The notes under the pieces: generated by a model
Database searches by the model: none
Told to the model about the DNA's origin: nothing
What the model saw: the letters and a program-made list of their open reading frames with translations, nothing else
Shown: piece by piece, positions 3,712-33,332 of the stretch
Numbering within the stretch: position 1 is the stretch's first letter
How the letters are laid out: each line of letters opens with the position of its first letter
Made by a program: the position numbers and the translations under genes
From: Rhododendron vialii
Taxonomy: Eukaryota; Streptophyta; Magnoliopsida; Ericales; Ericaceae
Direction of reading: 5' to 3'
Length of the DNA: 64,000 nucleotides
Assembly: GCF_030253575.1 (NCBI RefSeq)
Contig: NC_080568.1
Location: 30,717,001-30,781,000 of the forward strand

Positions 3712-3893
3712 ATGGCTCTGCGCCTACTCGGGAGGAAGCTGATGATAGTGAAGCCACAAAAACTAGGGTTCGGTTTCAGAAACATCTCTCACACAGCCGT
3801 CCATGACAATCCACCTTTGGACCCACATGCTCGCATCCGTCGAAGCGTTAATATGGTCTACGTCCTGCCAAACCAATATGAGGATGACGTTCT

Positions 3894-3929
<36 letters not shown>

Positions 3930-6128
3930 GCTAGATGGAATTTCTTTTACTGACGCAAGGGTGGGTAGAATGGAGGCATTTAAAGCAACTGGTAAATTGC
4001 TTTGCCTCATAATGTTATTCTTATTCCACTGCAGGGAGAGAACCGCCGGTTGAATGAAGAGAACCACCGATTGAAGGAAGAGAACAGCCAGTTGATAGAG
4101 AACTGCCGGTTGAAGGAAGAGAACCGCCGGTTGATAGAGAGGCGAGTTGAGTTTATTGCTTTTGATACCTAGCCCTTTTTTTTTCCATTCTCACACTTGG
4201 TTTGTTTTCCTATAGGCTGAAAACAGTGGAAGAAGAGATTATAGGTGATTTGCAGCATGATACAAACAAGGTAATTAGTGCTCTATATAAAAAAAAATGC
4301 TAAAATGAAGCCCTTTCCGGTCATTTTTTTCGCAAGTACTCTTAAAATCACGTTCTGCACACAGCACACATTGAGCGGCTCGGATCATCGAAATTCAATC
4401 GGGAAGGAGAGTCCCGCATTTTAAATTAAAATGCGGGATCCCTCACCAGAACCTGACTGTATATATATATATTTGGTATGCTATATATATTTCTTTCTTT
4501 CTTTTTCTAATCAGAAGTGTTATAAAAGTTTCCTTTTTTCCCAAAACTCCTTGTAAAATAAGTAATTTCGTGATTAATTTATAATGTCTTATGAGTCAGA
4601 GTTATCGTAACTTGTGCAGCACAATAGGATATTATCACGTCTGTTGTCGACTGTAATCTATGCATACCCACTTTCGTGGATCTATGTCCCTATCTCCTAC
4701 AATTAAGATTTAGAGAGCTCTGAGGCTTAGATATGCACTTCCACACCTTGTACTCGTCCTCTCACATATTTGAGACCGGCCCACCAGAAAAAGAATTTGA
4801 AATCATTTATATCCGTCCGCATCTCCATCAAGAGAGGCTCTTTCACACACCCACATCCAGACATATACGATAGGGAACTGTTGTCTTTCGTCAAATTCAC
4901 AACTATATTGATTATTAATGGTGTGAATCGGTGTTCCGTTGTCTATCCAATAGAATTGAATTGGTATGCTAATGACTCACGGCACCTATTCACCTCTCTA
5001 TTCTAAATTGTTGCTTGTGATTTCATCAGCTCAAGGAGTCGTCACGAAAGAAATGAATTTAATGGACATTAGTAAGAAGGAAAATTTGAAGGTTGTTTTC
5101 TTTGCTTATTAATTTCTTGCTAATATGCTTCATCTTTCTGTAATTATGGTTCTCTGATAAGCGGAGGACATATGAAATTATTTTCTTTTTCCTTTGTAGG
5201 ATGATGCATCAAATACTATCAATGAGTCGTTTGAAAAGGTGACGCGATTGGAAGAAAATATTTTCGGTGATTTGCATCGTGATAAACAGAATGAAAGAGA
5301 TGGGTGGAAGCCAGTTGAAACCAAGGTATGTGCTATATTTCTTTCTTCTTTCTCGAATCGATAGTGTTGTACTTAAACGGATATTGTTCGCTTGTGTTTA
5401 GTAATAACTATGGTATTTTTTATTTTTTTTTTCTGTTCGTTTTAGGTTTTTTTTTGGTATTTTTAACTTGAGGTTATGTGTTCCAATATAATGTTGGCAA
5501 TGCGTGGCTATCTTTAGGAGATGATTAGGGCTTTCTGTTTCCTTTTCTTTTCTTTTGTTTCGAAATGTGGTTGTAGGTGTGCAATAGTAATGGTATTAGA
5601 TGTACGGTCTATCTAACCATCGTACCTAATAATATATAACCACACAAAAAAAAAAAAGTCACATTTGATAGTGAAGAGCATTGTTTACAATTGAATCAGT
5701 GTTCTATTTTATATACAATAGAATTTAATTGGTACACTGCCGAGTCATGGGACCTGTTCGTTCTCTCCTCTATCCTAAAATGTTGCTTGTGGTTTCATCA
5801 GCTCGACGAGGCATTACAAAAGATGGAGGAAATGAACAAGGAACAGCATCATTTAAGATGCACTGCGGAGGAAAATCTTATAGCCAAGTTGGAGGTTGTT
5901 TTCTCTGCTTATTTCTTGTTAATCCGCTTCGTCTTTCAATAATTAGCATTTTCTGATAAATAAACGACACATGTAAAGATTTTTCCTTCTCTTTTGTAGA
6001 TTGCATCGAAGACGATGAACGAGTTGAATCAAAGGGAACTGAGGGTGGAGATGCAGAGGAACCATGATCTCTACTGCCGTGACGGCTGTTCCTCTGTTGC
6101 GTATACAAAAGGACAGGCATTTTCTTAA
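3712..6128 (+). CDS. Array copy 1: chimeric MORC-tail coiled-coil gene
   Basis: Exon N (from 3712) encodes MALRLLGRKLM and a basic stretch free of acidic residues, then ends in a Ser-Leu run from a CT repeat. The downstream exons match MORC tail exons. A is 4035-4141, with five NxxL heptad units where MORC has one. B is 4216-4270. D/B hybrid is 5200-5325. C is 5802-5894. The terminal D-like exon is 6000-6128 and ends TAA. A through terminal totals 510 nt in one open frame. A relic C exon at 5030-5091 holds an in-frame TGA and must be skipped. Intron A-B has a GC donor, as in the MORC gene. The exon N donor is unclear: the GTC used in copies 2-4 is CTC here. No ATPase motif is present. The product would be a basic start plus coiled coil; expression is unproven. 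Confidence 0.5.
3897..3925 (+). repeat. CT microsatellite at the exon N junction
   Basis: A (CT)n tract follows exon N directly. Equivalent tracts sit at the same place in copy 2 (10937-10968), copy 3 (19227-19277 and 20104-20174) and copy 4 (28011-28044). It marks the boundary between the foreign 5' exon and MORC-derived intron sequence. Its length sets the reading frame if it is translated. Confidence 0.85.
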
Positions 6129-6265
6129 TGGTTTATTTGGATTGGTGTTTGAATTTTTTTTTTGAAAAATAGTAGGGGTAATAAGTGGAGAGAGATAGAG
6201 AGAGAAATGTTGAAAGTAGGGGAAATTTTTTAAAAAATTCTTTTTAAATTGTAAAGAGAACAAAT
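6129..6265. mobile_element. Small MITE-like insertion after copy 1
   Basis: Copies 3' and 4 read TAATGGTTTATGAATCTC across this point. Copy 1 has about 135 extra bases (TTTGGATTGGTGTTTGAA onward) between the two halves. A related sequence lies at 41105-41215 and 43956-44000, where a long LTR splits it. The termini are not well defined. Confidence 0.45.
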
Positions 6266-7445: not shown

Positions 7446-7454
7446 AATCTAATA

Positions 7455-10755: not shown

Positions 10756-10933
10756 ATGGCTCTGCGCTTACTCGGGAGGAAGCTGATGATAGTGAAGCCA
10801 CAAAAACTAGGGTTTTATTTCAGAAACAGCTATCACACAGCCGTTTTCCATGACAATCCAGTGAATTCACCTTCGGACCTACATGCTCGCATCTTTCCAA
10901 GCGTTCCGGAAGAGTACCACGTCGACGTTCTGG

Positions 10934-10972
<39 letters not shown>

Positions 10973-13900
10973 CCCACCGTGTGTCTCCGTTCTTCTCGGT
11001 AGCTAGATGGAATTTCTTTTTCTAACGTAAAGGTGACTAGAATGGAGGCATTTGATGCAATTTCTAAATTGCTTTGCCTGATCATGTTAATGTTATTCTA
11101 CTTCAGGAAGAGAACCACCGATTGAAAGAAGAGAACCGCCAGTTGATAGAGAACCGCCGATTGAAGGAAAAGAACCGGCAGTTGATAGAGAACCGCCTCT
11201 TGAAGGAAGAGAACCGCCAGTTGATAGAGAGGTGAGTTGAGTTTATTGGTTTTGATAACTCGCCCTTTTTTTCCATTCTCACACTTGGTTTGTTTTCCTA
11301 TAGGTTGAAGCCAGTGGAAGAAGAGATCGTTGGTGATTTGCAGCGTGATACACACAAGGTAAATGCCGTATTTCTTTCTTCATTTTCTAATCAGCAGTGT
11401 TATACTCAAATGGATGTCGTGTGCTTGTGTTTAGTTACAACTATGGGGTTCTCTATCTTTAGTTCTTATTTTTAGTTTTTTTTTTTTTTGTTGTCGGACC
11501 GCTTTTCCACCGTCTCTCCTAAAATCAATTGGTGGTAGAAAAGATTTCAATTAAGTCTTTTATGACATTCGACATCACATCCGCAAGTCTGTCCTTAGAG
11601 CGGTCGCAGAGAGTGGCATTGTGTAACCAAATCCATAGGATCCCTCCCTCACGATGACGCTCCCGCGCCTCAAACCCATGACTTCTTGGCTCTGATACCA
11701 CTTGTCGGACCGCTTTTCCACCATTTCTCCTAAAATCAATTGGTGGTAGAAATGGGTTCAATTAAGTCTTTTATGACATTCGACATCGCACCTGCAAATC
11801 TATTTTTAGAGCGATCATAGGAAATGGCATTATGTAACCAAATGCATGGGATCCTCCAGACCCAACATTTGTTCTTCATACTTTAATGTTATGTATACCA
11901 ATATAATGTTATATTCGATATGCAGTCTGTCCAACCTCCCGTAGTGGAGATTAACACTATAAAAAGAAACTCACATTTGATAATTTACAATGTCTTGAGT
12001 CAAAGTTATTGTAACTTGTGCAGCACAATAGGATATTATGACGTCTGTCATCTATGCATATCCACTTTGGTGAATCCCTTTTAATTGTTTACAAGTTTGA
12101 GCTGTGGATTCCTTTTGATCCTCTGTTATTTAGACCGAGATTGGTTCTTATGTACCGGCATTATCGCGGGGCCTGCTTCGGCAGTAGGTACTTGAGATCG
12201 ACGTTTAGGTTACTTTGATTCTTTCCTGTATTTGTTTTGAAATCTGTTTGCCCAGTGGGCTTTTGATGAATGAATGACCTTTTCAAAAAAAAAAAAAAAA
12301 CTTTGGTGAATCCATGTCCCTATCTCCTACGATTTAGGGTTTAGAGAGGTCTGAGTCTTAGATACACTTTCACACCTTGTACTCGGCCTTTCACATATTT
12401 GAGACCCGCAAGAAAAAGAATTTGTAATCAGTTATATTCGTCCACATATTCATCCAGAGAGGCTCTTACACACTCCCACATCCAGACACATACCCAGAGG
12501 GAATTGTTGAAAACAAAGTTGAAGGTTGTTTTCTCTATTTATTTCTTGCTAATAAGCTTCATCTATCTGTAAATATTACCGTTCTCTGATAAGCGGACGA
12601 AACATGAAATTATTTTCTTTTTTCCTTTGTAGGATGATGCATCAACTACTATCAATGAGTTGTTTGAAAATGTGACACGATTGGAACAAAAGATTTTAGG
12701 TGATTTGCATCATGATATACAGAATGAAAGAGATAGGTGCAACTCACTTGAAACCAAGGTATGTGCTATATTTCTTTCTTCTTTTTCTAATCAGCAGTGT
12801 TATACTCAAATGGATATTGTTCGCTTGTGTTTAGTTACAACTATGGTGTTTTCTATCTTCGATTCTACTCTTTTTTTGATTTTTCTTCTTCTTAATTTGA
12901 GGTTATGTATTTCAATATTAAGTTGGCAATGCGTGCCTTCTACTCTTTTTAAGGTGTTTTTAGATGGTATTCGGAAAATAAAATTGTAACATAATCCGTA
13001 GGGGCATCTTTCAACCTTTTGTTGGAAGATTTGTTTTGTTTTTCTTATAGTTGTGCTGGTTGTCTTTGGCTCCTTGAGCAAAGATATTTCGTCCTCGATG
13101 TACCCCTTTGAAATATATAAAATCTTTCGTTTGCCGAGAAAAAAAAATTTGAGGTTATGTATTCCAATATTAAGTTGGCAATGCGTGCCTATCTTTGGGA
13201 GATGATTAGGTGGAGTTGTTCAAAGACAAGATGAGGGATTGAGCAAGAACATTGGGCCGATTACAATTACATGTTTTACTATTTTGTACCGGTATTTTTA
13301 TTTTGCCTTTATCTGGGCTTTCTTTTCTTTTATTTCGAAAATGGGGTTGTTAGATATTTGCATGTCTAACCACCGTACCTGAGAATAACCACACAAAAAG
13401 AAACTCACAGCAATTTCTATATAAAAGTTTCCTTTTTTTTCCCCCCAAAACTCCTCTTGAAGTAGAGTAGATTCCTGATTAGTTCACAGTATCTTAAGTA
13501 AGAGTTATTGCAAATTGTGTTGCACGTACAATTGAATTTTATGACGTCTGTCATCTATGCATACCCACTTTGGATCCATGTCCCTTGCTCCTTCGATTCA
13601 AGGTTTAGAAAGGTCTGAGACTTAAATATGCTTGCACACCTGATACTCAAATGCTAGTCCTTTTACATATTTGTGACCTGACGAAAGAAATAAACTGAAC
13701 TCATCATCAGTTATATCTGTTGCATCTCCACACCTAAAAGGAGTTGTTGTCTGTTTTCAAATTCCCAGTTGTATTGGTTTTTAATGGTGTGAGTTGGTGT
13801 TCCATTTTATATCTAATAGAATTTAATTGGTACGCTACCTAGTCATGGTGCCTATTTGTTCTCTCCCTCTATCCTAACTAAAATGTTGCTTGTGGTTTCA

Positions 13901-14219
13901 TCCTAAAATGTTGCTTGTGGTTTCATTAGCTCGAGAAGGCATTACGAAAGATCGAGGAAATGAACAAGGAAATAACCAAGTTGAAGGTTGTTTTTCTCTG
14001 CTTATTTCTTGCTAATGCGATTCATCTTTTAGTACTTAACATTTTCTAATAAATGAACAGCACATATAAAGTTTTCATTTTTTATTTTTTTAGAATGCAT
14101 CAAATTCGATGGACGAGTTGATTGAAAGGGTGACGCTGTTGGAGATAACGAGGATAAACAAGAAATCGATGACTCATATTTTTCCCAACAAGCGCTCAAT
14201 TCGAATCGTCCGTCCCTAG
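10756..14219 (+). CDS. Array copy 2: best-preserved chimeric MORC-tail gene
   Basis: Exon N starts at 10756 (MALRLLGRKLM, then many K/R/H and few acidic residues: mitochondrial-presequence-like). Two phase-0 donors are possible, CTG|GTC at 10932 or TCG|GTA at 10998. MORC-derived exons follow: A 11107-11231 with six NxxL heptads, B 11304-11358, D/B hybrid 12633-12758, a short C 13930-13986, and a terminal D-like exon 14094-14219 ending TAG. A through terminal is 489 nt without a stop, so the protein would be about 221 or 243 aa. The first C exon is reduced to its last bases (about 12513-12526). The introns hold a TRIM (11492-11867) and two LINE tails, all outside exons. No ATPase domain. Inference: a coiled-coil protein able to pair with itself or with MORC, possibly in mitochondria. 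Confidence 0.6.
11492..11867 (-). mobile_element. Very small LTR element (TRIM/SMART type)
   Basis: Two direct repeats of about 160 bp (11492-11651 and 11703-11867) both begin TGTCGGACCGCTTTTCCACC. Between them lie only about 51 bp. On the minus strand these include TGGTATCAGAGC (11689-11700), the initiator-Met tRNA primer-binding site, two bases from the upstream LTR. The termini are TG...CA and the flanks are a perfect 5-bp duplication TTTGT (11487-11491, 11868-11872). No protein is encoded. It lies in the B to D/B intron of copy 2. Confidence 0.88.
12078..12300 (+). mobile_element. 5'-truncated LINE tail with poly(A)
   Basis: A 223-bp insertion ends in a run of A and is flanked by the 14-bp duplication ACTTTGGTGAATCC (12064-12077 and 12300-12313). 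Poly(A) plus a long target duplication is the mark of target-primed reverse transcription. Only a 3' untranslated tail is present. Confidence 0.85.
12939..13145 (+). mobile_element. LINE tail with an unusually long target duplication
   Basis: A 207-bp piece begins near the last codons of LINE ORF2 (FKVFLDGIRK is readable in its longer relative at 21292) and ends in poly(A). The flanks 12894-12938 and 13146-13190 are 45-bp direct repeats with one mismatch. It is almost identical to the 3' end of the minus-strand LINE at 21292-21797, so both come from one recently active family. Confidence 0.85.
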
Positions 14220-14413
14220 ATGAACGGTCGGATACCGCTCGACATCCTGCTTGGTACGGGCTGCTCTGCAACATCCCGGATGGGGCAAAGCCAATAATAT
14301 AGTACTTTTCTCTCTTTTGGTTTGCTATAATTTGATTTTGGACTTCAACAAAATTAGATCGCACGGGTGATATATGGTAATTAAATATTGAGCTGATAGC
14401 TGTTGAAACATGG

Positions 14414-16123: not shown

Positions 16124-16226
16124 TTAAACCCACCCTAACCCTTGCTGCAGACTTCTGTTTGAGAGACCCAAGTACTAGGCTACCCGAACAATGGCTCTGC
16201 GCTTGCTCGGGAGGAAGCTGATCTTA

Positions 16227-16465
16227 GAGCCCGTTCCAGAAATGGAAAAAAGTCCTTATTTTTTAAGAAGGCAATTTCAAACTCAAAAATTATGGGTTTA
16301 TTGAAATTTAAAAATATGCAATATGGATCTTGTTTGAAAGATTTCAATGAGATCTTTAATACGATGCAAAAAAAATTAAAAAATTATTTTTTATTTATAT
16401 TATTTTTGAGTTTGAAAATGTGAAATAAGCTGCTTATTTTTTAAGAAGGTTTCTGGAACGAGGCC
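16227..16465. mobile_element. MITE of the CCCGTTCCAGAAA family, in exon N of copy 3
   Basis: The left end reads GAGCCCGTTCCAGAAAT and the right end is the inverse, TTTCTGGAACGAGGCC. The uninterrupted exon N in copies 1, 2 and 4 shows the empty site. Close relatives lie at 62430-62668, 34953-35165 and 35763-36003. No coding capacity. Confidence 0.8.
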
Positions 16466-16521
16466 ACCAAAACCAGGGTTTTATTTCAGAAACGGCTTTC
16501 GCACAGAGAACCAAGATCTTT

Positions 16522-19197
16522 TTTTGAACAGCAAAGAAAATTTATTAATCTTTGAAAATAGATTACAAAGATTAAAATGATTCATAGCATGAGGCATCAA
16601 AACAGAGCAAAGAGAACTCCGACAATCATATGCCATGCTGCTAAGAACCAGAAGGGAAATAACCACCCATAGATGACAACAAGTCAACCCGGCCCAAAAC
16701 CCAAAAAAGAGCCAAACACACCCAAGATCCAACTACCTGCCCCTGAGATGACTAATGATCGATCATGAGATTACTTAAGACTTCCTCATCATCACCCAAA
16801 TAATCTTCGCCCAAGATTTTCTCAATAGACCGAGTAGCCTTTGCATCATCAAGATGTAACCCGTTAGTGTCTTTGGAAAAAGCGGATAAAGCCGCAGCAG
16901 CAATTGCAGATCTAAACAATACGCATTTTTTCTTCTTTCTTCCTACTTTCTTCTTAGAATTAGGAATGCCCAACATTTTCTCATTCGACTTATGCTTCGA
17001 ATTTCCTTTCCCCATTTCTTTAGTCTTCTCAGTTGGGTCAAGGTCCACAACTAACTGGATGCCATCAATAGATTTAACATGGGTCGAATTAAGTTCAACC
17101 ATTTCCAAATCAGCTTGATTAAAAAAACCCACTTCTGAGAGGTTCCAGAATCCTTTGTCAAACACCCCAACATCCGAAACTGGATCATGAATCAATAATG
17201 GGGTTATATTCTCAGCTGCAATTTCGCCATCTTCCAAGACCAAATTGCTAGAATCACCCATCACTGAATTCACAACCTTGGGACTAAAGTCATCCCCAAT
17301 GAGTCTAGAGTCAGCTCCACCACTTACTGAAGAGTTTTCACAATGGGTTCCACTCTCCTGGACAACATTAAGCTCCACCTCAGAAGATGACCCTTTGGTT
17401 TCACTAACGTGTGATTCCAACAGAGGGAGCTCACAACCTGAAAAAGACCCGTCACTCGTAGATACATCGCCAACCTCTTTATCAACAGTAGTATTTTGAC
17501 CAGACCTACTCCGGACCTCAACACCAAACGCAAGAGGATCTTCCCTAACCTTGACTTTGTAGAGAATACCATCAATGTCGAGTTGAATAGAATCGTCAAT
17601 AGTGGACATGATCTCAGTAGCAACCATAACCCTCCCATTTGTAAGTGATAGACAATGAAGAGTGGAGTCATCAACCTTCATGAAAGCACCCCATTTTTCA
17701 CCAATCTTTCTAAAAGAATCCAAGTTCCAGACATTTAACGGCATCCCTATGCAGTTTAACCAAACAAACCTTTCAGCCATTGCAGCTTCACCTTTCCAAG
17801 GCTTAATTTCACTAAACCACCTTTGAAAGCAATTACCTTTGATCATGGTATCCCTAACCTCAGTAGTTTTAAAAGTAATCAGACAATATCTTCCCCCCAT
17901 GCTTCTAATCAAAGACTCCTTAATATTTTCCTTTTCCAGTTCCCTCATTAGCTCCTCAACCTCCATAAATTTATGGAGTTTGGCCACCCCACTCCTGAGG
18001 AGCCAATCATTACCCATTGGCTTAAGCTTTAGAGAAACTGACTTGACACCACTTCCCAAACCACCTTGGTTGTTGCCTTTCAGCATTTGGGCATATGAAA
18101 AGTTTCCACCCATCAACTCCCCTCTTTTGCTGGATTCGGCACTCGGAATATTAGAATTCCCAATCAATCCGGGATCTTTTCTGAAGCTTTCCAATCCAGT
18201 GACAACCTTGGAGGACCCTTTGTTCAATCTCACATTCCTTTCCTTATCATTCTGATCAAAGCTCGCAATTTTAACAAATAGCTTTCTGTCCTCCATCCAA
18301 AGACCGTTAGCTTTGGATATAGCAACATCAGCAGAAACTGCACAATTATATCTAACAAAACCAAATTTTCTCCCTGTCGCCTTGCTTCTTTTTTCTGGAA
18401 TGAAAACATCCCTAACAACGCCGAATTTCGTGAAGAATTTTTTCAACCACGCATGGCTTGTGTCTTCCGGTAAGTTATCAACAAAAAGAGTAACCCATTG
18501 AGCATCCCCTTTTCCCCCTCTGTAGAGATTTTCATATCCCACTTTAGCATCCAATTTACGTTTGTTACCCAACACAGGAATCCAACCTCCTGCTTCACTT
18601 CTCAGTTTTTCCATTGCCACCCAAAATTATACCATAGACATAATCACACCAAAATCAAAGCCAGCAGGGAAGAACACCAGATAAACAAATGGAAACAAAC
18701 CCCAAAAACAAAACAAGAACGAACACCCACAGAGCCGTGCAAAACCAGAAGCCTCAAAAAGATGGAACTGACCTTTTGTGCTGTTTCTCTCTGCTGCGTT
18801 GCTTCCTCAAGCCCACAAGTTGCGGAGGCTGCCGGCGACCCAAACCCAGAGATTGTAGACGCCCAACGGAACGGCCAGAGAACAATCGGCGGATCTGGAG
18901 GCCAACAGACCGAGAGGTGGATCAGTCAGTCAACGAAACTGGATGAAGATGGTAACCAGAGAGCGGCAAGACGGTGAATCGGCGACGATTAGGAGTTTTG
19001 GGAGCAATAAAGGCGTGGTGAAAAGAAATTGGTAAGGGGTACGGGGAGGGTAGATGTGGGAAGGAGTAGTTCATGGGAAAAGAGGGGGTGAGGGGAGGCC
19101 AGCCGGCATTGGCCGCCGGCGTTACGGGGAAGGAGGTGGAGTTAGGGTTTCATCGCCTATTTCGCCCAAATCGCAGGTTGTCCGAAAGTTGTTTTTT
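16522..19197 (-). mobile_element. ORF1-only LINE-like retroelement
   Basis: A 2676-bp minus-strand insertion begins near 19197, carries one intact ORF1, and ends in an A-run (T-run on the + strand at 16518-16525) soon after a short 3' UTR. It is flanked by a perfect 18-bp duplication CAGAGAACCAAGATCTTT (16504-16521 and 19198-19215), diagnostic of target-primed insertion. No reverse transcriptase is present between the ORF1 stop and the tail, although plant L1-type LINEs normally carry a long ORF2 there. The tail sequence (AAGATTAATAAATTTT, then TGCTGTT) resembles that of the LINE piece at 20500-20990. Confidence 0.88.
16752..18620 (-). CDS. LINE ORF1-type RNA-binding protein, 622 aa
   Basis: An uninterrupted 622-codon frame. 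Residues about 42-118 form an RRM, with RNP2-like LFVDNL (45-50) and RNP1-like RKFGFVRY (84-91). Residues about 205-365 resemble DUF4283, including WLNCIGMPLNVWN and the RKIGEKWG segment. An acidic, Ser-rich region follows, then a basic cluster KKKVGRKKKK near 565. There is no CCHC zinc knuckle. RRM plus DUF4283 is typical of ORF1 in a subset of plant L1-like LINEs (BNR type), where it binds element RNA. The intact frame suggests recent insertion or selection. A retrocopy of a host RRM gene is the alternative. Confidence 0.8.
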   Translation of the reverse strand: MAMEKLRSEAGGWIPVLGNKRKLDAKVGYENLYRGGKGDAQWVTLFVDNLPEDTSHAWLKKFFTKFGVVRDVFIPEKRSKATGRKFGFVRYNCAVSADVAISKANGLWMEDRKLFVKIASFDQNDKERNVRLNKGSSKVVTGLESFRKDPGLIGNSNIPSAESSKRGELMGGNFSYAQMLKGNNQGGLGSGVKSVSLKLKPMGNDWLLRSGVAKLHKFMEVEELMRELEKENIKESLIRSMGGRYCLITFKTTEVRDTMIKGNCFQRWFSEIKPWKGEAAMAERFVWLNCIGMPLNVWNLDSFRKIGEKWGAFMKVDDSTLHCLSLTNGRVMVATEIMSTIDDSIQLDIDGILYKVKVREDPLAFGVEVRSRSGQNTTVDKEVGDVSTSDGSFSGCELPLLESHVSETKGSSSEVELNVVQESGTHCENSSVSGGADSRLIGDDFSPKVVNSVMGDSSNLVLEDGEIAAENITPLLIHDPVSDVGVFDKGFWNLSEVGFFNQADLEMVELNSTHVKSIDGIQLVVDLDPTEKTKEMGKGNSKHKSNEKMLGIPNSKKKVGRKKKKCVLFRSAIAAAALSAFSKDTNGLHLDDAKATRSIEKILGEDYLGDDEEVLSNLMIDH

Positions 19198-19225
19198 CAG
19201 AGAACCAAGATCTTTATGACGATAT

Positions 19226-19279
<54 letters not shown>

Positions 19280-19280
<1 letters not shown>

Positions 19281-20101: not shown

Positions 20102-20103
<2 letters not shown>
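19417..20103 (-). mobile_element. LINE ORF2 RNase H-domain fragment
   Basis: On the minus strand, separate frames give PPSYNCVNL, GDYLYRR-like pieces and LCRLEIEVDALAVIQLI, matching the RNase H (RVT_3) region at the end of plant LINE polyproteins. Frameshifts and stops break the frame near 19800. It is inserted in the CT repeat of copy 3, next to an oppositely oriented LINE tail. Confidence 0.7.
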
Positions 20104-20176
<73 letters not shown>

Positions 20177-20499
20177 AGCTAGATGGAATTTCTTTTTCTA
20201 ACGTAAGGGTAGCTAGAATGGAGGCACTTGATGCAATTGGTAAATTGCTTTGCCTGATGATGTTATTCCACTGCGTGCAGCGAGAGCAAGATTGGTTGAA
20301 GGAAAAAGAGGTTCCCCGGTTGAAGAAAGAGAACTGCCAGTTGATAGAGAGGTGAGAGTTGAGTTTATTGCTTTTGATACCTCACCCTTGTTTTCCATTC
20401 TCACACTTGGTTTGTTTTCCCATAGGTTGAAATCGGTGGAAGAAATTCTTATATGTGATTTGCAGGTAAGTGCTATATCTTTCTTTCTTCTTTCTTCTT

Positions 20500-20990
20500 T
20501 TTTTTTTTAACAGCGAAAAAATTTTATTAATCTTAAAATTGTTACAAGACTAATAGGAGTAAGAAAACAACGTCATGTTAAGAAGAACAGTCGGTCCAAT
20601 TTGAAATCCAAACTTACGATTGACAAGAAACTAATCCAGAACACCCAAATGGGACAAATTCCAAACATCGTATATGGATCTAAAAACCCAGATCAATACA
20701 AATATAGCACAAAGAGGCCTAAAATGTCTAAATCATACAATAACACTCAACAGTGGGCCAAGCCCAGTCCAAATGGAACCAAACCTGGTCCAAACCGCAA
20801 ACCTAACCCTAACCAACAGAAAGCCACCACACACCCCTGCCCCAAACCGCCGACCACCATATATACCCTGGTGAACAACCACCACCAAAGACCCGAACAA
20901 GGCCGTGAGCAAGACCACCAGACGCCGAAGCTGAAGACCTGCGCCCACCCACCAAATCGGCCGGAGACAAGCAGCACGCCACCAAGTCTT
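20500..20990 (-). mobile_element. 5'-truncated LINE, 3' UTR region
   Basis: A T-run on the + strand at 20500-20513 marks the poly(A) end. The flanking TCTTTCTTC sequences at both ends match the empty sites in other copies (TTTCTTTCTTCTTTTTCTAA). The A-proximal sequence resembles the tail of the ORF1-only element at 16522. Open frames inside it are low-complexity and probably not coding. Confidence 0.75.
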
Positions 20991-21291
20991 TCTTCCTTTT
21001 CTAATCAGCAGCGTTATTAATTTCGTGATTAATTTACAATGTCTTAAGTCAGAGTTATAGAAACTTGTGCAGCACAATAGGATATTATGACTTGTGTCAT
21101 CTATGCATACCCATTTTCGTGGTTCCATGTCCCTATCTTCTAGATTTAGGGTTTAGAGAGGTCTGAGGCTTAGATGCACTTTCACACCTTGTACGCGTTC
21201 TTTCTCCATCTAGATAGGCTTTTTTACACACCCACATACACATACCTAAAGGGAATTGTTGTCTGTCATCAAATTCCCAATTAATTGTATT

Positions 21292-21797
21292 TTTTTTTTC
21301 TCGGCAAACGAACGATTTTATATATCTCGAAGGGGTACATCGAGGACGAAAAATCTTTGCTCAAGGAGCCAAAGACAACCAGCACAACCATAAGAAAAAC
21401 AAAACAAATCTTCCAACAAAAGGTTGAAAGACGCCCCTACGGATTATGTTACAATTTTACTTTCCGAATACCATCTAAAAACACCTTAAAATCTTCCACA
21501 GAGTACACTTTGATATCGAATTTTGCCTTCATCCACATCGTGACCCTTGTTTTGATTAGGTCCCCCACCTCCCAAGCCTGAGTTGATGCATTCTTAAAAA
21601 CGTAGTCATTCTGAACCAACCATAAAGACCACAGAGTAGCAAAGAAACATGCTTCCCATATGTGTCTTTCCAGATTGTGGAACCCATGACTGAACCACCA
21701 ATTAGATAAGTCTAGAACCGTATAAGGGCACACCCATTTGACATCCCACCATTTCATAATTACTGACCATACAACCCAAGAGAATCTGACATCCCAT
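21292..21797 (-). mobile_element. 5'-truncated LINE with ORF2 C-terminus
   Basis: Flanked by the 14-bp duplication CAATTAATTGTATT (21278-21291 and 21798-21811). A T-run at the left is the poly(A) tail. The minus-strand frame 21757-21449 gives the C-terminal end of a LINE polyprotein: WEACFFATLWSLWLVQNDY, then FKVFLDGIRKVKL and a stop. Only about 500 bp remain. Confidence 0.88.
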
Positions 21798-21908
21798 CAA
21801 TTAATTGTATTGATTATTAATGGTGTGAGTCGGTGTTCCGTTGTCTATCGAATAGAATTAAATTGGTATGCTAACGAGTCATAGCACCTATTCATTCTCT
21901 TCTCTATT

Positions 21909-22600
21909 TGTAGCAGGCCGAGCAAAATGGCTCGGGCCATTCCGAGCGTGATCTAGTATTACTTTCAACTCCAAGACATCTTTCTTTGGACGTTCGGATC
22001 AGCAACCGTAGCCGAAGGTCCCTGTCGCCGAGGGTTCCTCTAATTACGCCTCCTTTAATGCTTCATTCCCTACACCTGCTCGGGGTGGAGGATACGTTCG
22101 TTTGGATAGCTGCCGAAGGTCCCACAACATGCTCGGTGCCGAGCATGGCTTAGCCGACGATCCAGCTCATCCGCGTCAGAACAGCAACCATGGGTATGAT
22201 GATGGTTGTGACGTCATCCGAACGGTTATAAGAACAATGATGGTGGCACGTGAAGGTGCCAGCTCATCATGAAAACGGTTGCAAAACCCTAAACGTGATG
22301 TAACAGTGACATCAGCCGACGCGTGTCAAGCGTTGGTGCAATCTTGGAGACCAAGAGAAGGTCTTCTTATAAATATCCCATTATGCCTTCTTGGTGCAGG
22401 TACGCGAAAACAAAACCCTAGCTCCCAATCTCTAAACTCTTCCTTACAAGCAAACTGACTCTTGCACCGGAGGGCCATCCCGGAAAACCTCCGGTGTGGT
22501 CTTTTAGTCGTGCTTCGTTTTACAGGACTGATCAAGGAGATAGAAGCTAACCAAGAGCCCACATTCAAGAAGTACGAACCATCCAAAACGGAGCCCCACA
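21909..22600. mobile_element. Solo LTR of an LTR retrotransposon
   Basis: A 692-bp sequence starts TGTAGCAGGCC and ends GCCCCACA. It is flanked by a perfect 5-bp duplication CTATT (21904-21908 and 22601-22605). It contains a TATAAATATCC motif at about 22370, as in an LTR promoter. No internal domain or second LTR is present, so it arose by LTR-LTR recombination. It interrupts the intron just before the damaged C exon of copy 3. Confidence 0.9.
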
Positions 22601-22681
22601 CTATTCTAAATTGTTGCTTGTGATTTCATCACCTCGAGGAGGCGTCACAAAAGACTGAGGAAATGAATTTAATGGACATTA

Positions 22682-23022
22682 AGTCCCCGTTTGTTTGGGT
22701 GTAGAATATTTTTCTTATCTTTGGTGTTTGGTTGTGCAAAAGACAAAAAATATTTTACTAGGTAAAACATTTTACTTCATTTGGTTGAAAATATTTTCTG
22801 CTTGAAAAGGTAGTAAGTCACTTTCCAAACTTGGTTTTGCTGCTCGACTAATAATTACATTATTTAACTGAGCTCTCCTATAGCCCAATCTTATCCACCT
22901 ATTTGACAAATCCTGACATGGAAACGAATTAATCAATAATCCATATTTGACGCAAAACTAAAAAACAAGAAACAAATTTGAATAAGGAAAAAAAAAAAAA
23001 CCTCACTCTGCAAAAAAAAAAA
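22682..23022. mobile_element. Probable MITE between copy 3 and copy 3'
   Basis: Begins TCCCCGTTTGTTTGGGTG, a common MITE-type terminus. Flanks show GACATTAA on both sides (22674-22681 and about 23030). Copy 4 has a related AT-rich insertion at 28355-28715. The right end is unclear because of A-runs. Confidence 0.4.
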
Positions 23023-23544
23023 AAAAAAAGACATTAATTTGCGCGCGCTCTGTCTCTGGAATTTCTCTTCCTTACGGAAGGGTGGCTACAATGGAGGCAT
23101 TTGATGCAATTTCTAATTAAATTACTTCTCCAAATTAATTATGTTATTCCATTGTAGGAAGAGAACCGCCAATTGAAAGAAAGGTGAGTAACGAGTTTAT
23201 TGCTTTTGATATGTGAATACTGAACCTCGCTCTTTTTTCCCATTCTCACAGTTGGTTTGATTTTCCCATAGGTTGAAGCAAATGGGAGAAGATATTATAG
23301 GTGATTTGCAACGTGATACACAAAAGGTAAGTGCTACTACGAGAAAATCTTATTTACGAAAACTTTCCGTGAACAAGGCTTTACGGAGTCTCAATAGCGC
23401 GCGTTCAAAGTGTATTGGATGATCTGAATTTTAAACAATTTTTTTTTAAAGTCCGGACCGTTGATTGCCGAAATGGACGACTGTAATTTAGCGCCTCTGC
23501 AAATGATCGACTTATTTACGGCTACTCTAATTACAATTACATAC

Positions 23545-23690
23545 TTTAGGCCCCGTTCCACTAAAAGAAATAAGTACTTAATTTCTTGAGTTAAAGACGA
23601 TACATTGTGAAAAAATAACCTGTCTCGTAAAACAAAAAAATAAGAATTTAAAAGTTAAAAATTAAAAGACTTAGCAGAACAGGATCTTAC
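23545..23690. mobile_element. Diverged MITE of the CCCGTTCCAGAAA family
   Basis: Starts GGCCCCGTTCCACTAAAAG and ends with AGCAGAACAGGATC-like sequence. It is a worn relative of the element at 16227-16465. Confidence 0.4.
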
Positions 23691-24614
23691 CATTTTGTGC
23701 CGGTATTAATATTTTGCTTTTATGTGGGCTTATGCAGTCTATCCACTCCCGTATCGGAGATTAACGCCACAAAAAGAAACTCACATTTGCTATTGAAGAG
23801 AAATAAAGTAAACTCCTAATTAATTTACAATGTCTTTAGTGCATCTATGACCCGATCTCCTATGATTTAGGGTTTAGAGAGGCCTGATACTTAGATGCAC
23901 TTCCACACCTTATACTCACATCCTAGTCCTTTCACATATTTGAGACTCGCCAAAAAAGAAACTTGAAATCAGTTATATCTACATGCATCTTCATCCAGAG
24001 AGGCTCTTTCACACGTCCACGCCACACCTACATATAGACACACACACCGAGAAGGAACAGTTGTCTGTCATCAAATTTCCAATTGTCTTGGTTGTTATAA
24101 TGGTTTGAGTCATTGTTCCGTTCTCTATCCAATAGAATATAATTGGTACGTTAACGAGTCATGGCTCCCTATTCATTCTCTTCTCTGTTCTAAATTGTTG
24201 CTCGTGGTTATATCAGCTCGAGGAGGCATCACGAAAGATTGAGGAAATGAATAAGGTTGGGGAGAATTTAAGAGATATTCTATCAGAGGAGAGAAAGCGG
24301 CAAGACATTAAGAAGGAAAATTTGAGAACCAAGTTAAAGGTTATTTTTTCTGTTTACTTCTTGCTAATACACTTCATCTTTGTAATTACCGTTCTCTGAT
24401 AAAGGGATGACAAATAAAAATAATTTCTTTTTTTTTTCTTTTTTTTGTAGGATGATGCATCAAATACCATCAATGGGTTGTTTGGAAAGGTGACGCAATT
24501 GGAACAAACGGTTTTCAGTGATTTGCATAATGAAAAAGATAGGTGCAAGTCACTTGAGACTAAGGTATGTGCTATATTTCTTTCTTTTTTTCTAATCAGC
24601 AGTGTTAAACTTAA

Positions 24615-24808
24615 GGAGGCGGCTTCTCTGCAGTTGGACTGTAAAGAGTCCCTGCAGTTGCATCGTAACCGTTCAACTTTTCATTCAACGGTGCAGATTT
24701 TAAAAAACTTTTCAGGGAATCCCCGGAAAAGTTATTTTTTCTTAATCTCAACCGTTAAAATCATTATCCGACGATTGCAATCACTTGGACCGCAGAGAAG
24801 CCAAATTC
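24615..24808. mobile_element. MITE in an intron of copy 3'
   Basis: Inverted ends GGCTTCTCTGCAGTTGGAC and GACCGCAGAGAAGCC. The other copies lack it in the same intron. A repeated ACTTAA motif on both sides is a possible target duplication. Confidence 0.6.
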
Positions 24809-26255
24809 TATACTTAAATAGATATTGTTTGCTTGTGTTTCGTTATGACTATGGTGCTCTCTTTCTTTAATTTTGTTCTTCCTTTTTAGTTTTTGTTCTT
24901 TTTAATTTGAGGTGGCTATCTTTGGGAGATGATTAGGTAGAGTTGTTCAAAGACAAGATGTGGGATTGAGCAAGAACACTCGGAGGATTACAATTTTTTG
25001 CCTTTATCTGGCCTTTCTTTTTGCTTTTCTTATCTTTTGTTTCGAAATGGGGTTATGGGTGTTCATGCATCGGTAATGGTATCAGATATACAATGTCTTA
25101 CGAAAGAGTCATCGCAAATTATGCACCACAATTGAATATTATGACGTCCGTCATCTATGCATATCCACTATGGATCCATATCCAAGTTTCTCCTATATAT
25201 GATTCAGGGTTTAGAGAGGGTTTGGAGAGGTCTGAGGCATAGCTTCGCTTGCGCACCTAGTACTCCAATGCTAGCTAGTCCTTTCACATATTTGAGACCC
25301 ACCTGAAAAAAAGAAATTGAAATCAGTTATAACTTTCACATGTCCACACCACACCCAGAAGGAACGATATATTGTCTGTCATCAAATTCCCAGTAGTATA
25401 ATTGATTGTTAATGATGTGAATCGGTTGTTCCGTTTTATATGCAATAGAATTAAATTGGTACATTAACGAGTCATGACACTTATTCATTCTCTTCTCTAT
25501 CCTAAATTGTTGCTTGTGGTTTCATAAGCTTGACAAGGCATTACGAGAGAATGAGCAAATGGATAAGGCATTACGAGAGAATGAGCAAAAGGACGAGATG
25601 CTTGATATGGCATTACGACAGAATGAGCGAATGAACGAGGAACTAAATAGGCTAAGATGATACTGTTGAGGAGGAAATTCAAGTTGTTTTCTCTGCTTAT
25701 TTCTTGCTAATGCGCTTCATCTTTCAGTAAGTACCGTTTTCTGAGAAACGGATTGCACTTGAAAAGTTTTTTTTTTGTTTTTTTTGGGTCTTCTGTAGGA
25801 TGTGATGCATTTCTTTGCTAATGCATGAACAAGTTGATTGAAAAGGTGAAGCGGTTGGAGAAGATGAAGAACCCCAAAGCGCTAGTTGTTTTGCGGTAGA
25901 TGTACGTCTGCCATTTTCTTAATGGTTTATGAATCTCTAAACTCTATGGACATTTCTATCGTCTCCTGGTTTTCTTTTTTCCTGTAAATTTACAGTAGTT
26001 TAGCTGTTCGGATTTGGATTTGTTTTAAATTAATTTCGGGATTGGAATGCTTGATGCATTATGGTTTGCTAACGTACGTTGACAAGGAAAAATCTAGAAG
26101 TAGATTTCCGGGATCAGAGGGAAAAATATAGAAGTAGATTTCAAGAAACAATTGTGAGTGTATGGGAAAAAAAATGTTGTGAACAATTTTTGGGATTAGA
26201 GGGATTCTTGAAAGTTTTAAAAAAAAATGATCTAAAAGTTGATTTTGGATAAATT

Positions 26256-27054: not shown

Positions 27055-28008
27055 TGAGAGGAATTTACGTACACCTTTACTAATCTGATCATTTTCCAAA
27101 TGAGAAAAAAATGATCATTTTTTGTGTGTGTATGAGAGGAAAAGAGTTGGCTCCACGTACCATGATCATTTTTTATGTTTCTTTTATTAGGTCTCCAGAC
27201 GAATTTACGTACACCTCGACTAATCTCTTTTCCAATTCGGTCAAAGAGAGATCATTCACGTTGAAATTATAAAATTTACAAAAAAATTACCTTCTTACTC
27301 GCTGTTTGACCTCTAAAATTGTACTCTAATTAATTGTTCGGAAAGCCAACTCATTTTTACGATTTTACTTTTTCATGGTTAGCATTTAGATGTAATGAAT
27401 TATACTCCACTATTTGTGGTGCATGTGAGTGTGTTTGTGTCTATACACTTTTTTGAGGTGTTAGACATTTTTTGTCCTTATTCAATTCATCCTCTATTTG
27501 AGAGCATGGTTTTCGGAGGAAATGTAATTCAAACCTATTCTCAATTTCATCTTCTATTTGAGAGAATCAAGTTTAATACTCCAAATCTTATTTTATTCAT
27601 CAAATTAGTTATGATACGTACATTTATTTTCAATAAATTTAATTATGAAATAAATTAATCAATGATAAATGCGAAAAATTTTATCATTGCCTTTATTTAA
27701 AAAAATAATTATGAATATATTTTTTGGCATTTTAGATTTCTCTCAAAACAAACTCATAATTCATAGAAAAATAAATAAAGCAAAATTAACAAATACCAAA
27801 TTTTCCGAATGAATGTAAGAAACAAAACTCCAAACGTATATTTAAGTGAAACCACCCTAAACCCTAGCAGCAGACTTCTGTTTGAGATACCAGGAAGGAC
27901 CAACCGAGCAATGGCTCTACGTTTACTCGGGAGGAAGCTGATGATAGTGAAGCCACAAAAACTAGGGTTTTGTTTCAGTGACAGCTATCGCACAGCCGTT
28001 CCGGCCGT

Positions 28009-28049
<41 letters not shown>

Positions 28050-29638
28050 CGGCCTTGGCCAGATCACTTGTTTTATCTTGTTCGATTTTGATCTCATTAA
28101 TTCCTATTGTTTTCGTGTTCCGACTGAATTTGGGATCTCGTAGAGAACACTTGCAAGAATCGTAAAACCCAAAAGCTGGCCCGAGATCCAATTGGTGAGG
28201 TTCCATATATTGTTTGACATTTTTTGCTTGAAATTTCTTTGCTCTTTTTATAATCCTTATGGGTGTATGTGTGTCTATTATACATACACGGATGATACGT
28301 GTATACACATAATTGCACTGATGAACACTTGTAACTCCAGGTGGCAGCGTCGAACTTAGGGCTTGTTTGGCAACAATAAGCCTCTTAGCTCTCTTTATTT
28401 ATTTTTTCCCTATTGTCTTTATTTAAAATTTGACTCATTTGTTAGTTTCACGTTAAATTTTCGTGGATTATTGATTCGTCTCATCCAGAGGAATCGCAAA
28501 AGTTAAAAATTATGATTGAATAATAAGTTCAAAAGACGTTTTTTTGGCTAAATTTTATCTTTGTTCAAAAAATATTTAAGTATTTTAATTTCTTGATTCC
28601 AGGCATTGAGATGAATCAATAATTCTTATTTGACAGTAAACTAAAAAATGAAAAAAAAATTTGAATAAAGGAAAAAAATAATAATAATAAGCTACTTGAT
28701 TTATTTTTCCAAAAACAGACCTTAATTTTGCGCGTGCCCTCTCCTTCTGTAGAATTTCTTTTACTTAAGAAATGGTGGCTAGAATGGAGGCATTTGATGC
28801 AATTGATATATTGCTTTGCCTAATTATTATGTTATTCTACTGTAGGAAGAGAAAAATCGCCAATTGAAGAAAGAGAAGGAAGACAACCGCCAGTTGGAGG
28901 AAGAGAACCGCCAGTTGAAAGAAAGGTGATCGAGTAATGAGTTTATAAAGCTTTTGATATGTGAATACTGAACCTCGACCTTTTTTCCCATTGAGATCTC
29001 ACGTTTGGCTTGTTTTTCCCATAGGTTGAAGCAAATGGAAGAAGAGATTAGTGGTGATTTGCAGCCTGATACACTAAAGTTGAGTGCTATATATGTACTT
29101 AAATGGATATTGTGTGCTTGTGTTTAATTACAGAAAAGTCATAATTCCCCCCTATGACGTATGTAATCTATGCATACCCACTTTCATGGATCCATGACCC
29201 CATCTGATCTTAGGGTTTAGAGAGGTTTTGATGCACTTTCACACCTTGTACTCATATCCTAATCCTTTCACATATTTGAGACTCTCCAGAAAAAGAACTT
29301 GAAATCAGTTATATCCGCCTGCATCTCGATCTAGAGGCTCTTTCACATCAACACCACACCCACATGTAGACACACACCCCGAGAGGGAACTGTTGTCCGT
29401 CTTCAAATTCCCAGTTTTTTTATTTGGTTTGAATCTGTTTTTCGTTGTCTATCTAAGGAGTAGAATAAAATTGGTACGCTGACGAGTCATGGCATCTATT
29501 CATTCTCTTCTCTATTCTAAATTGTTGCTTGTGGTTTCATCAGCTCGAGGAGGCATCACAAAAGATTGCGGAAATGAATAAGGTTGGGGAGAATTTAATA
29601 GATATTTTATCTGAGGAGAGAGAGAGAGTAGGGAGTAG

Positions 29639-29942
29639 GGCTGTAAATGAACCGAGTAGCTTGCGAACTCGGCTTGGCTCATTTACTAAATGAGTCAAGC
29701 TCAAACTCAAGTTTTTGGGTCGTTTAGTAAATGAGCCGAGTGGAGCTCGGCTCATTACACAAAAACTCGTCTTGTTAAGGGTGGCTCGACTCGATTAAAG
29801 AGGCTTGTTTAGTAAAAGACTAAGCTCGGCGCATTAAAGGCTTGGCTCGTTAAGGCTTGAGTCGAGCTCGAGTTTTTGGCTTATTTAGTAAACGAGCCAA
29901 GCTCAAGCTCGACAAAGCTCGGCTCAGCTCGTTTACAGCCTT
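29639..29942. mobile_element. hAT-like MITE inside a C exon of copy 4
   Basis: Left end TAGGGCTGTAAATGAACCGA, right end GCTCGTTTACAGCCTTG (inverted). The body is made of repeated GAGCCGAGC/GCTCGGCTC motifs. It interrupts the coding stretch SEERER of exon C. The target duplication is not clear, perhaps because a few bases were lost. Confidence 0.75.
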
Positions 29943-30718
29943 GGTGACAAGATATTAAGAAGGAAAATCTGAGAACCAAGTTAGAGGTTGTTTTCCTTGC
30001 TTATTTCTTGCTAATAGGTTTCATCTTTCCGCAATTACCGTTCTCTAATAAATGGACCGCAAAATGAAAATATTTTCTTTTTTCTTTTGTAGGATGATGC
30101 ATCAAACACCATCAATGAGTTATTTGAAAAGGTGACGATGTTCGAACAAAGGAATGTGCTCCGTGATATACAGAATGAATTTAACTCACTTGAAACCAAG
30201 GTACGCGCTATATACTCAATTGGATATTGTGTGCTTGTGTTTAATTAAAAAAAAAAAAGTCATTATTTTTTCCCCCAAACTCCTCTTGAAATAAAGTAAA
30301 TTCGTGATTAAATTATAATGTCTTAATTCGGTGTTCTTGTAAATTGTGCACCACATATAGATTATTATGACATATGTCATATGTGCATACCCACTTTCGT
30401 GGATCCATGACCCTATCTCCTACAGTTTAGGGTTCAGAGAGGTTTAAATGCACTTCCACACCTTGTACTCACATCCTAGTCCTTTCACATATTTGAGACT
30501 TGCCAAAAATGAACTTGAAATCAGTTATACTCCTTTCACATATTTGAGACTTGCCAAAAATGAACTTGAAATCAGTTATATCCACCTACAAAGAGGCTCC
30601 TTCACACATGCACCCACATATAAACACACACACACACACTGAGAGGGAACTGTTGTCTGTCATCAAATTCCCAATATTTGGATTTGGTTCGAATCAGTGT
30701 TCCCTTGTCTATCCAATA

Positions 30719-30933
30719 TTTGGTTCGGTTGAGGAGTTCAAAGGGTTTTTAGATGGTATTCGTTTGTTAAAATTGTAATCCTTGAGGAGCCCTCTTCCAA
30801 TCTCCTGCTGGATGAGTGTTACTTTGTTTTTCTTTTCGCTGTGTTGAGTTAGTTTGCTTCCCAGCATTTCCTCTCGATGTAACCTTTCGAGTTTAACAAA
30901 TTCTCTTTTGCCGAGCAAAAAAAAAAAAAATAG
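30719..30933 (+). mobile_element. LINE tail with ORF2 end and poly(A)
   Basis: Reads EEFKGFLDGIRLLKL and a stop, then a 3' UTR ending TTTTGCCGAGC and 14 A. It is related to, but clearly diverged from, the tails at 12939 and 21292. It sits in the D/B to C intron of copy 4. The target duplication is at most a few bases. Confidence 0.75.
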
Positions 30934-31499
30934 AATAAAATTGGTACGTTAACGAGTGATGGCATGCATCTATTCATTCTCTTCTCTATTCTAAATTATT
31001 GCTTGTGGTTTCATCAGCTCGAGGAGGCATCACAAAAGATTGCGGAAATGAATGAGGTTGGGAAGGATTTAATAGATATTTTATCAGAGGAGATAGATTG
31101 GCAGGACATTAAGAAGGAAAATCTGAGAACCAAGTTAAAGGTTGTTTTCCTAGCTTGCTACTAATAGGTTTCCATCTTTCTGTAATTACCGTTCTCTAAT
31201 AAATGGACAGCAAATTAAAAGAAAATATTTTCCTTTTTTCTTTTGTAGGATGATTCATCAAATACCATCAATGAGTTGTCTGAAAAGGTGACACTGTTCG
31301 AAAAAAAGATTTTGGATGATTTGCAGCATGAAATGCTAATTGAATTTAACTTCCTAGAAAACAAGGTACGCGCTATATAGTAGTGCTATACTTAAAATGG
31401 ATTGTTTGCTTGTGTTTAGCTATAACTGTGGTGTTCTATCTTTTGTTTTTCTTTTTCAATTTTTGTTCTTCTTAATTTGAGGTTATGTATCTATCTATT

Positions 31500-32503
31500 C
31501 TAATACTAGGCCAGGGTATGTCATTGCTACGTGTTACGCACGATCGATCATGCCTGTTGATTCGGTAACATTAATTACTTTGCGAATATTGTCCCGTGTC
31601 ATTGTTTATGCTCTGTATGCAATCTTGACCTACCCTGCCCCACTCCATTGTCATTCCTAAGCCACACCCCGCGTCTTTTCTTGGAGAGACCCAAACCAAG
31701 TTGTTTTTTGTTTTTTTTTTGGATAATCTCATGGTTTGAAATGTTTGACGTACGTGGGAATGGAACCTGTGACATCATAAAAGAGCAGTTATTACTTTCT
31801 CACAATTACTTGGTCAAACCCAGGTTTTCCTAAGTATTATTCTCTCTTATCCGTAATTTTTTTTTCCTCTCCCAACAAATTGGTTGATGTCCACAAAAAT
31901 CTGTGATCCCAGACCCCATCAATTAAATCTGATTTTCAATCCTTGATTATGGGCTTCTCATTACCAATCCTGAGGCCACCGGAAGTATCAAATTCAACAT
32001 CTACGAAATCAAAAGATTTTTGTTACTTATTTTTTCCGTTGGAAAAGTGACTGATGGCTTTCATTTTGAAATTGGTCGGATATAATGAAACTTGCATTAT
32101 AATTTTTTTTGTCATATTAACCGAGCAACAGACAGTTCCAATCTGTATATGCTTAGATTCAATTCGAACCGTTCATGTCGAAATGAATGGGCGGATAACG
32201 CTCGACACCCGCTTGGCAGCATTCCCGGGTCCTCTCACAGTCTCATGTACTCTTGAGAAAATTTATGATCTATTCTTGATGCTTACTTTTAGTTTATTTT
32301 GTGCCCATACTTCCTTAAAAAGACATGCACTTGGACATCATTATAATAAATACCACTGGGCACACGCGATGCGTGTGTAAATTATTAAATTTTTATAGGC
32401 TATGAAAAATCGCTTTCTGCCTATTGTGTGTTTGATTAAATTTGACAAAATATACAAAATTTGACTTACACACATTGCGTGTGTGCCACGGGCTCTCATT
32501 CCA
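31500..32503. mobile_element. About 1-kb insertion of unknown type in copy 4
   Basis: The sequence GAGGTTATGTAT...TTGGCAATG that is continuous in other copies is split here by about 1 kb. Short flanks ATTCTAATA and ATTCCAATA may be a 9-bp duplication. GC-rich palindromes such as CACACGCGATGCGTGTG occur near the right end, as in some Helitrons. No protein is encoded. Class unresolved. Confidence 0.45.
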
Positions 32504-33332
32504 ATACGATGTTGGCTATGTGTGCAGCGTAGCTATCTTCGATCGGGAGATGATTGGGGGGAATTGAGCTAGAACACTGGGCCGATTACAATTACATGCT
32601 TTACTATTTTGTAATGGTATTTATATTTTGCTTTTATTTGGGTTTTCTTTTTGTTTTTCTTTTCTCTTGTTTCGAAATGGGGTTGTGGGTGTTCATGCAA
32701 TGGTATGTCCCTTTCTCCTATGATTCAGGGTTTAGAGAGGATTTGGAGAGGTCTGAGGCTTAGATGCGTTTGCGCACCTTTACTCAAATGCTAGTTCTTC
32801 CACATATTTGAGACCCGCTAGAAAAAAAAAATTTAAATCATGTTGATCTCCAGCAAGAGAGACGCTTTAATTTCACATACCCACACCACACAGAAGGAAC
32901 TATTGCTTGTCATCAAATTACCCGTTGTATCGATTGTTAATGGTGTGAATCATGTGTTCCGTTTTATATTCAATAGAATTAAATTGGTACACTGATGAGT
33001 CATGGCATCTATATTAATTCATTCTCTTTTCTCTTTCCTAAATCATCGTTTGCTTGTGGTTTCATAATTAAGCTTGGGTTGGCATTACAAAAGATTCGCG
33101 GAATTAACGGGGAACCACATCGTTCAGGTTGTTTTCTCTGCTTATTTCTTGCTAATGCGCCTCATCTTTCAATAATTACTGTTTTTTTGATAAATTGACT
33201 CACTTGAAAAGTCTTCTTTTTTTTTTTCCTTTTATTTTGTAGGATCCATGGAATACCAATTTGATTGAAAAGGTCATGAGGCGGTTGGAGAAGATGAAGA
33301 ACCCCTTTCCAGTAAAGTTGATGACGACTTAA

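Follow-up and report, generated by a model that had tools for sequence, protein, structure and literature searches.

Mitochondrial presequences can be gained through exon shuffling. Among the described systems closest to the locus examined here, the available parts of the published accounts report a tandem cluster of AtMORC1, AtMORC2 and AtMORC3 in which AtMORC3 is a pseudogene in Col-0 (PMC4865129), 310 fusion genes in four Oryza genomes, such genes being frequent in Oryza (PMC9199173), and a gene family of Schistosoma japonicum with a common core promoter and signal sequence (PMC3434034). This study concerns a stretch of 64,000 nucleotides (nt) of the Rhododendron vialii genome (hereafter the window; assembly GCF_030253575.1, contig NC_080568.1, positions 30,717,001 to 30,781,000, forward strand), in which five partial units (c1 to c5) lie upstream of an intact MORC gene and on its strand. 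Coordinates are positions in the window, and features are on the plus strand unless otherwise stated. The units carry coiled-coil tail exons of MORC, joined in four of the five to an unrelated first exon. On balance we consider it probable, if only just, that the array was born coding, by formation of a chimera and tandem duplication, and has mostly decayed, with c2 perhaps still translated.

Extent of the MORC homology

The MORC gene (44715..58052), rebuilt from its splice sites, assembled and translated, has 20 coding exons encoding 809 amino acids (aa), with a sole stop at the end; 18 of its introns are GT-AG and one, between tail exons A and B, is GC-AG. The product matches the Pfam families Morc6_S5 (E 2.9e-60) and HATPase_c_3 (E 5.7e-12), and both the S5 and the GHKL ATPase domains are present in the gene by these matches. 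The intron between exons A and B opens with GC at 56620, as does its counterpart in c1, and GT stands there in c2, c3, c4 and c5.

The best blastn segment against MORC has an E value of 7e-81 in c1, 2e-97 in c2, 2e-46 in c3, 3e-118 in c4 and 8e-77 in c5, and because of these values the likeness cannot be attributed to chance. At the outer limits of blastn homology, the MORC segment found in the units spans 56451..58025 and comprises the end of intron 16, tail exons A (56546-56619), B (56700-56787) and C (57704-57826), and most of exon D (57942-58052). The left edge is common to all five units (MORC 56451-56460, 86-95 bases before exon A), while the right edge lies inside exon D in the four units that reach it, at 58025 at the furthest, and c3 stops in exon C. 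A tblastn search of the 809-aa protein against positions 1-44600 (E up to 1) gave 17 matches; every one fell within residues 692-793, leaving the ATPase and S5 parts unmatched, and at the same threshold there was no match after 58060. None of the 17 fell in c3, whose likeness to MORC is detectable as DNA only. Given these blastn edges and tblastn limits, the units consist of the coiled-coil tail with its introns and lack the ATPase. An earlier sequence-only reading of this DNA had described four or five upstream copies carrying only the tail exons A-D with flanking introns and no GHKL ATPase motifs; that description holds, with the number of partial units now set at five.

The C-terminal coiled coil of MORC is kept in the units, as seen in the homologous exons and in a heptad score above nearly all shuffles (equalled by 1, 1, 0 and 0 of 1000 shuffles for c1, c2, c4 and the MORC tail, respectively). 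Exon B measures 55 nt in c1, c2, c4 and c5 versus 88 nt in MORC, an in-frame loss of 33 nt, and 40 nt in c3. The same four units have an extra exon, DB, in which the start of D is joined to the end of B and which is without counterpart in MORC. In addition, a 3' flank is common to c5 (33435..33693), c1 (6340-6530) and c4 (25975-26257) and is unmatched in MORC, compared as far as 58700.

The first exon and the condition of each unit

Units c1, c2 and c5 open with one common exon unrelated to MORC (exon N, MALRLLGRKLMIVKPQKLGF). With the c2 exon as tblastn query, it was found in c1 (3712-3891, at 67%), in c5 (27911-28000, at 87%) and, in two pieces, in c3 (16191-16283, E 0.003, and 16434-16505, E 0.004); other matches in the window had E 0.08 or worse and were taken as chance. 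Searches for a source with the c1 form were negative in both Pfam (E up to 1) and PDB (E up to 10). The sequence-only reading had assigned one unrelated first exon to all complete copies, which is correct for c1, c2 and c5 and not for c3, where the copy is split, or c4, which has none. Together with exon N, an upstream region is common to c1, c2, c3 and c5. Upstream of the ATG, ACATATAAATAGTT occurs in c1, c2 and c3, in agreement with an earlier claim of a TATA context shared by three copies, and c5 has CGTATATTTAAGTG instead; the c1 region (3610..3711) contains the TATA-like ACATATAAATAG, common to c2 and c3. These three units also share the ATG context AACAATGGC, which agrees with the plant start consensus.

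The end of exon N and the start of exon A are both in phase 0 in c2 and c5. The GT that follows exon N in c2, c3 and c5 (TGGTCTC) is CT in c1 (TGCTCTC); the c2 donor (10932) scores 4.3, with 3 of the 19 MORC donors scoring below it, and the best in-phase open donor of c1 scores 3.2. CT repeats separate exon N from the MORC-like part of the units (3895-3925, 10939-10965, 19228-19278, 20106-20173 and 28011-28046), and MORC carries TCTCTCTT close to the equivalent edge, which suggests microhomology at the joint. Reading of the CT repeat as coding was considered and rejected, as the c1 frame meets a TAG just past the repeat (by eye) and the c2 donor beyond it (10998) scores 3.3 versus 4.3 at 10932.

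Judged by the marks of pseudogenes, lesions are present in c3, c4, c5 and partly in c1, and c2 is without a disabling lesion but evolves at a near-neutral rate. In c2, exon N (10756..10932, donor CTG/GTCTCC) is followed by tail exons at 11107..14219 (A 11107-11231, B 11304-11358, C 12498-12524, DB 12633-12758, C2 13930-13986, D2 14094-14219), and the frame N-A-B-C-DB-C2-D2 is open for 230 aa from the donor at 10932, with GT/AG at all six introns. The earlier statement that the second copy is open through its predicted exons was thus confirmed, but exon C is a 27-nt remnant, the frame being open without it as well (221 aa), and the C-terminus is repeat-derived, with the last codons and stop supplied by a repeated segment (14196..14254) that is 80% identical to 32159-32216. 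An alternative 228-aa form of c2 (N donor 10926) was used in part of the work, including the Pfam search. Unit c1 has a presequence-like exon N (3712..3894) and tail exons at 4035..6128 (A 4035-4141, B 4216-4270, C 5030-5091, DB 5200-5325, C2 5802-5894, D2 6000-6128), and is readable only when the 62-nt exon C is skipped because that exon shifts the frame. Unit c4 (22928..25899), which begins without exon N, retains A (23158-23183), B (23272-23326), C (24217-24339), DB (24451-24564), C2 (25529-25682) and D2 (25799-25899), with an in-frame TGA in C2. In c5, a shorter exon N (27911..28009) precedes tail exons at 28846..33332, among them an extra C-DB pair (31018-31140 and 31249-31365); the donor of exon B is lost after 29079, and exon C measures 443 nt versus 123 nt.

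Unit c3 (16191..22683) has exon N split by inserts resembling a miniature inverted-repeat transposable element (MITE) and a long interspersed nuclear element (LINE), followed by A (20281-20351), B (20426-20465) and the 5' part of C (22633-22683), without DB, C2 or D2. The longer insert (16505-19200) is LINE-like and contains a minus-strand open reading frame (ORF) of 622 aa with RRM_1 and DUF4283 (Pfam); by eye only, the short repeat AGAACCAAGATCTTT is seen at both of its ends. The MITE-like element is present in two copies of opposite orientation that are 87% identical, one in exon N of c3 (16256-16464) and one at 35764-35973. Elsewhere in the window, an ORF at 1648-2124 contains a Stress-antifung (DUF26) fragment (E 5.3e-06), and a fragment upstream of c2 (9535-9752) is similar to a GDSL lipase in its C-terminal portion, with an E of 0.0019 that falls short of the Pfam cut-off.

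Origin, coding constraint and rival explanations

Judged from the sequences themselves, the simplest account of the units appears to be one chimeric ancestor followed by tandem duplication, because the short exon B, exon DB, the 3' flank and the upstream region with exon N are shared between units. A MORC piece of ~1.6 kb (the end of intron 16 and exons A-D) would have been copied beside an unrelated upstream region and first exon; internal recombination would then have created the D/B fusion exon, with the loss of 33 nt from exon B, to yield a seven-exon coding gene (N-A-B-C-DB-C2-D2) that was subsequently duplicated in tandem. The proposal of a chimera made by exon shuffling is therefore sustained, with MORC tail exons joined to an unrelated first exon that has its own upstream region before tandem duplication. 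The opposite derivation, of MORC from the units, was rejected by parsimony, as exon B of MORC holds contiguously both parts found apart in B and DB. Among non-exon sequences (c3 was left out of the distance, indel-frame, stop-simulation and codon-model analyses), distances are 0.131 for c1-c2, 0.147 for c4-c5, 0.162-0.199 from one pair to the other and 0.190-0.216 to MORC; with no clock applied, these sequence distances are too large for a young array. The family had been called young, a description that does not fit non-exon distances of 0.13-0.20 among c1, c2, c4 and c5 and 0.19-0.22 to MORC. Non-exon stretches are also duplicated at 9861-10251 and 15267-15630 (79% identity) and at 7192-7451 and 14410-14662 (81% identity), which suggests a longer tandem unit.

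Several observations point to past translation, the retained heptad periodicity among them. Exon indels are multiples of three in 5 of 5 cases in c1-c2 and 2 of 2 in c4-c5, compared with 3 of 21 and 9 of 60 outside exons (Fisher P 8.5e-4 for c1-c2, 7.9e-6 for both pairs pooled and 0.0028 for c1-c2 minus the exon A repeat indel); these counts cover exons within chained alignments only, with exon C of c1 and c2 mostly outside them and that of c1 broken. In the first 20 codons of exon N (c1, c2, c5 and the first 10 codons of c3), all five variable sites are silent, with a neutral probability of 0.0015, and in the codon model a free omega is better than omega 1 by 4.24 log units. Among c1, c2, c4 and c5, pairwise pooled omega runs from 0.37 for c4-c5 (bootstrap 0.19-0.95) through 0.41 for c2-c4 (0.19-0.96) and 0.45 for c2-c5 (0.26-0.82) up to 0.77 for c1-c2 (0.56-1.24); the bootstrap range lies below 1 in the first three of these and includes 1 in the other three of the six pairs. 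A fair reading is that the array was once coding, when its N terminus was under constraint and its coil tolerated change, and that it has since largely decayed. The chimera would have been translated for a time, in which period the coil drifted in sequence but the frame and the first 20 residues were preserved. Today c2 is the sole unit still able to encode the full chimeric protein of 230 aa.

Other observations weigh against this reading, and we give a serious, though less than even, chance to the explanation that no unit of the array, not even c2, is functional any longer, the array being a partial duplication that formerly coded and is drifting. Four of the five units (c1, c3, c4 and c5) are damaged, and in c2 exon C is reduced to 27 nt and the end of the frame lies in a repeat. 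Exons diverge at the rate of introns, with exon and non-exon distances of 0.137 and 0.131 for c1-c2 and 0.144 and 0.147 for c4-c5. Over 214 codons of c1, c2, c4 and c5, omega is ~0.8 and inseparable from 1 (log likelihood -1495.77 versus -1496.32, a gap of 0.55), in a codon model that left out D2 and the c5 C2, used the second, uninterrupted exon C of c5 and cut the c4 C2 before its stop. Together with the damage, this rate tells against the working gene family across the array that had been proposed. Additionally, whole exon N is compatible with omega 1 (0.13 log units), the 20-codon limit was picked after the alignment had been inspected, and exon DB shows 1 silent and 13 replacement changes between c1 and c2. 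Under neutrality, the probability of staying free of new stops at d 0.065 is 0.21 for c1 and 0.17 for c2 (with D2 cut to 60 nt). In-frame indels number 1 of 1 in c2-c4, 5 of 6 in c1-c5, 3 of 5 in c1-c4 (which includes the broken exon C) and 5 of 10 in c2-c5 (which partly involves the degenerate c5 3' end), these wider pairs being dependent on the close ones; relative to MORC they number 5 of 13 in c1, 0 of 4 in c2, 1 of 1 in c4 and 3 of 5 in c5. A whole-gene tandem MORC pseudogene is also known in Arabidopsis, namely AtMORC3 in Col-0, according to the available part of PMC4865129. Loss of function throughout is opposed by the open frame of c2 with GT/AG at 6 of 6 introns, by the frame-keeping indels of the closest pairs and by the exclusively silent changes in the first 20 codons, and we retain the reading of a once-coding, mostly decayed array in which c2 may still be translated.

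That reading would entail transcription, splicing of exon N to exon A, targeting and pairing. Exon N is basic, acid-poor and has few serines and threonines, with 6 lysines or arginines among the first 30 residues in c1, c2 and c5 and no aspartate or glutamate in c1 and c2 (one in c5), a composition nearer to mitochondrial than to plastid signals. An amphipathic helix is unsupported, the best moment (0.44-0.47) being equalled by 2617 to 3040 of 5000 shuffles, and targeting draws no support from it; going by composition, exon N may specify a mitochondrial signal. If the c2 protein is made, its likeliest action would be for the basic, acid-poor N terminus to take a coiled coil that pairs with itself into an organelle, probably the mitochondrion. 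The fuller version, in which the dimerisation coil of MORC was given to a new organelle-directed gene family, with a selected presequence carrying a freely drifting coil into mitochondria and c2 still live, seems unlikely to us. Alternatively, the available part of one report states that MORC1 of tomato and potato requires its C-terminal region, which contains the coiled coil, for homodimerisation in vitro, and that this region can trigger cell death on transient expression (PMC5651269), and a coil-only protein could for this reason act on MORC. On these grounds, and with its heptad pattern retained, c2 (or c1) might serve as a decoy in the nucleus, pairing with MORC by way of the coil common to both and blocking MORC dimerisation. 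Against this stand the basic, acid-poor character of the new N terminus and a coil that has diverged as fast as the introns, and we regard it as the least probable of the explanations. Capture of the MORC tail and exon N by a transposable element of the Pack-MULE, CACTA or Helitron type would fit the element-like inserts and other gene fragments in the region, and gene-fragment capture by such elements is known in plants from what is available of PMC1947982. It is nevertheless improbable, since the units are arranged head to tail next to their donor, as unequal crossing over would leave them, and a self-comparison of 1-36000, which misses short terminal repeats and in which Helitron ends were not sought, showed no inverted match bounding any unit.

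Meaning of the locus and comparison with known systems

Should c2 be expressed, the locus would document in compact form how a new gene is put together, with donor, rearranged forms and dead sisters in one place, and also the entry of a nuclear silencing protein's coil into a new setting. If c2 is not expressed, this is an ordinary partial-duplication array, liable to be mislabelled as MORC genes by annotation pipelines. Among the listed titles and abstract openings on MORC, exon shuffling, chimeric genes, and tandem or partial duplication, no description of a MORC-tail chimera was found, which does not prove that none exists.

As in presequence shuffling, a first exon of presequence character is joined in phase to an unrelated body, although here the body is not an organellar protein and the targeting is putative. 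The remaining comparisons extend as far as the available parts of the three sources cited at the outset. Like the AtMORC1-3 cluster, the array combines tandem duplication of MORC with copy decay, but whole genes with the ATPase are involved there, whereas here there is only the coiled-coil tail, with a new first exon and internal rearrangement. The Oryza fusion genes resemble the units in that the chimera includes a duplicated part of a parental gene; they differ in that several tandem copies of the chimera stand here beside the donor, under weak constraint and known from sequence alone. As in the new gene family of Schistosoma japonicum, members here share an upstream region together with an N terminus of the targeting type, although that family is dispersed and expressed and the present array is tandem and read from genomic DNA. 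Set beside these systems, the locus is a good, moderately interesting case of partial duplication with exon shuffling.

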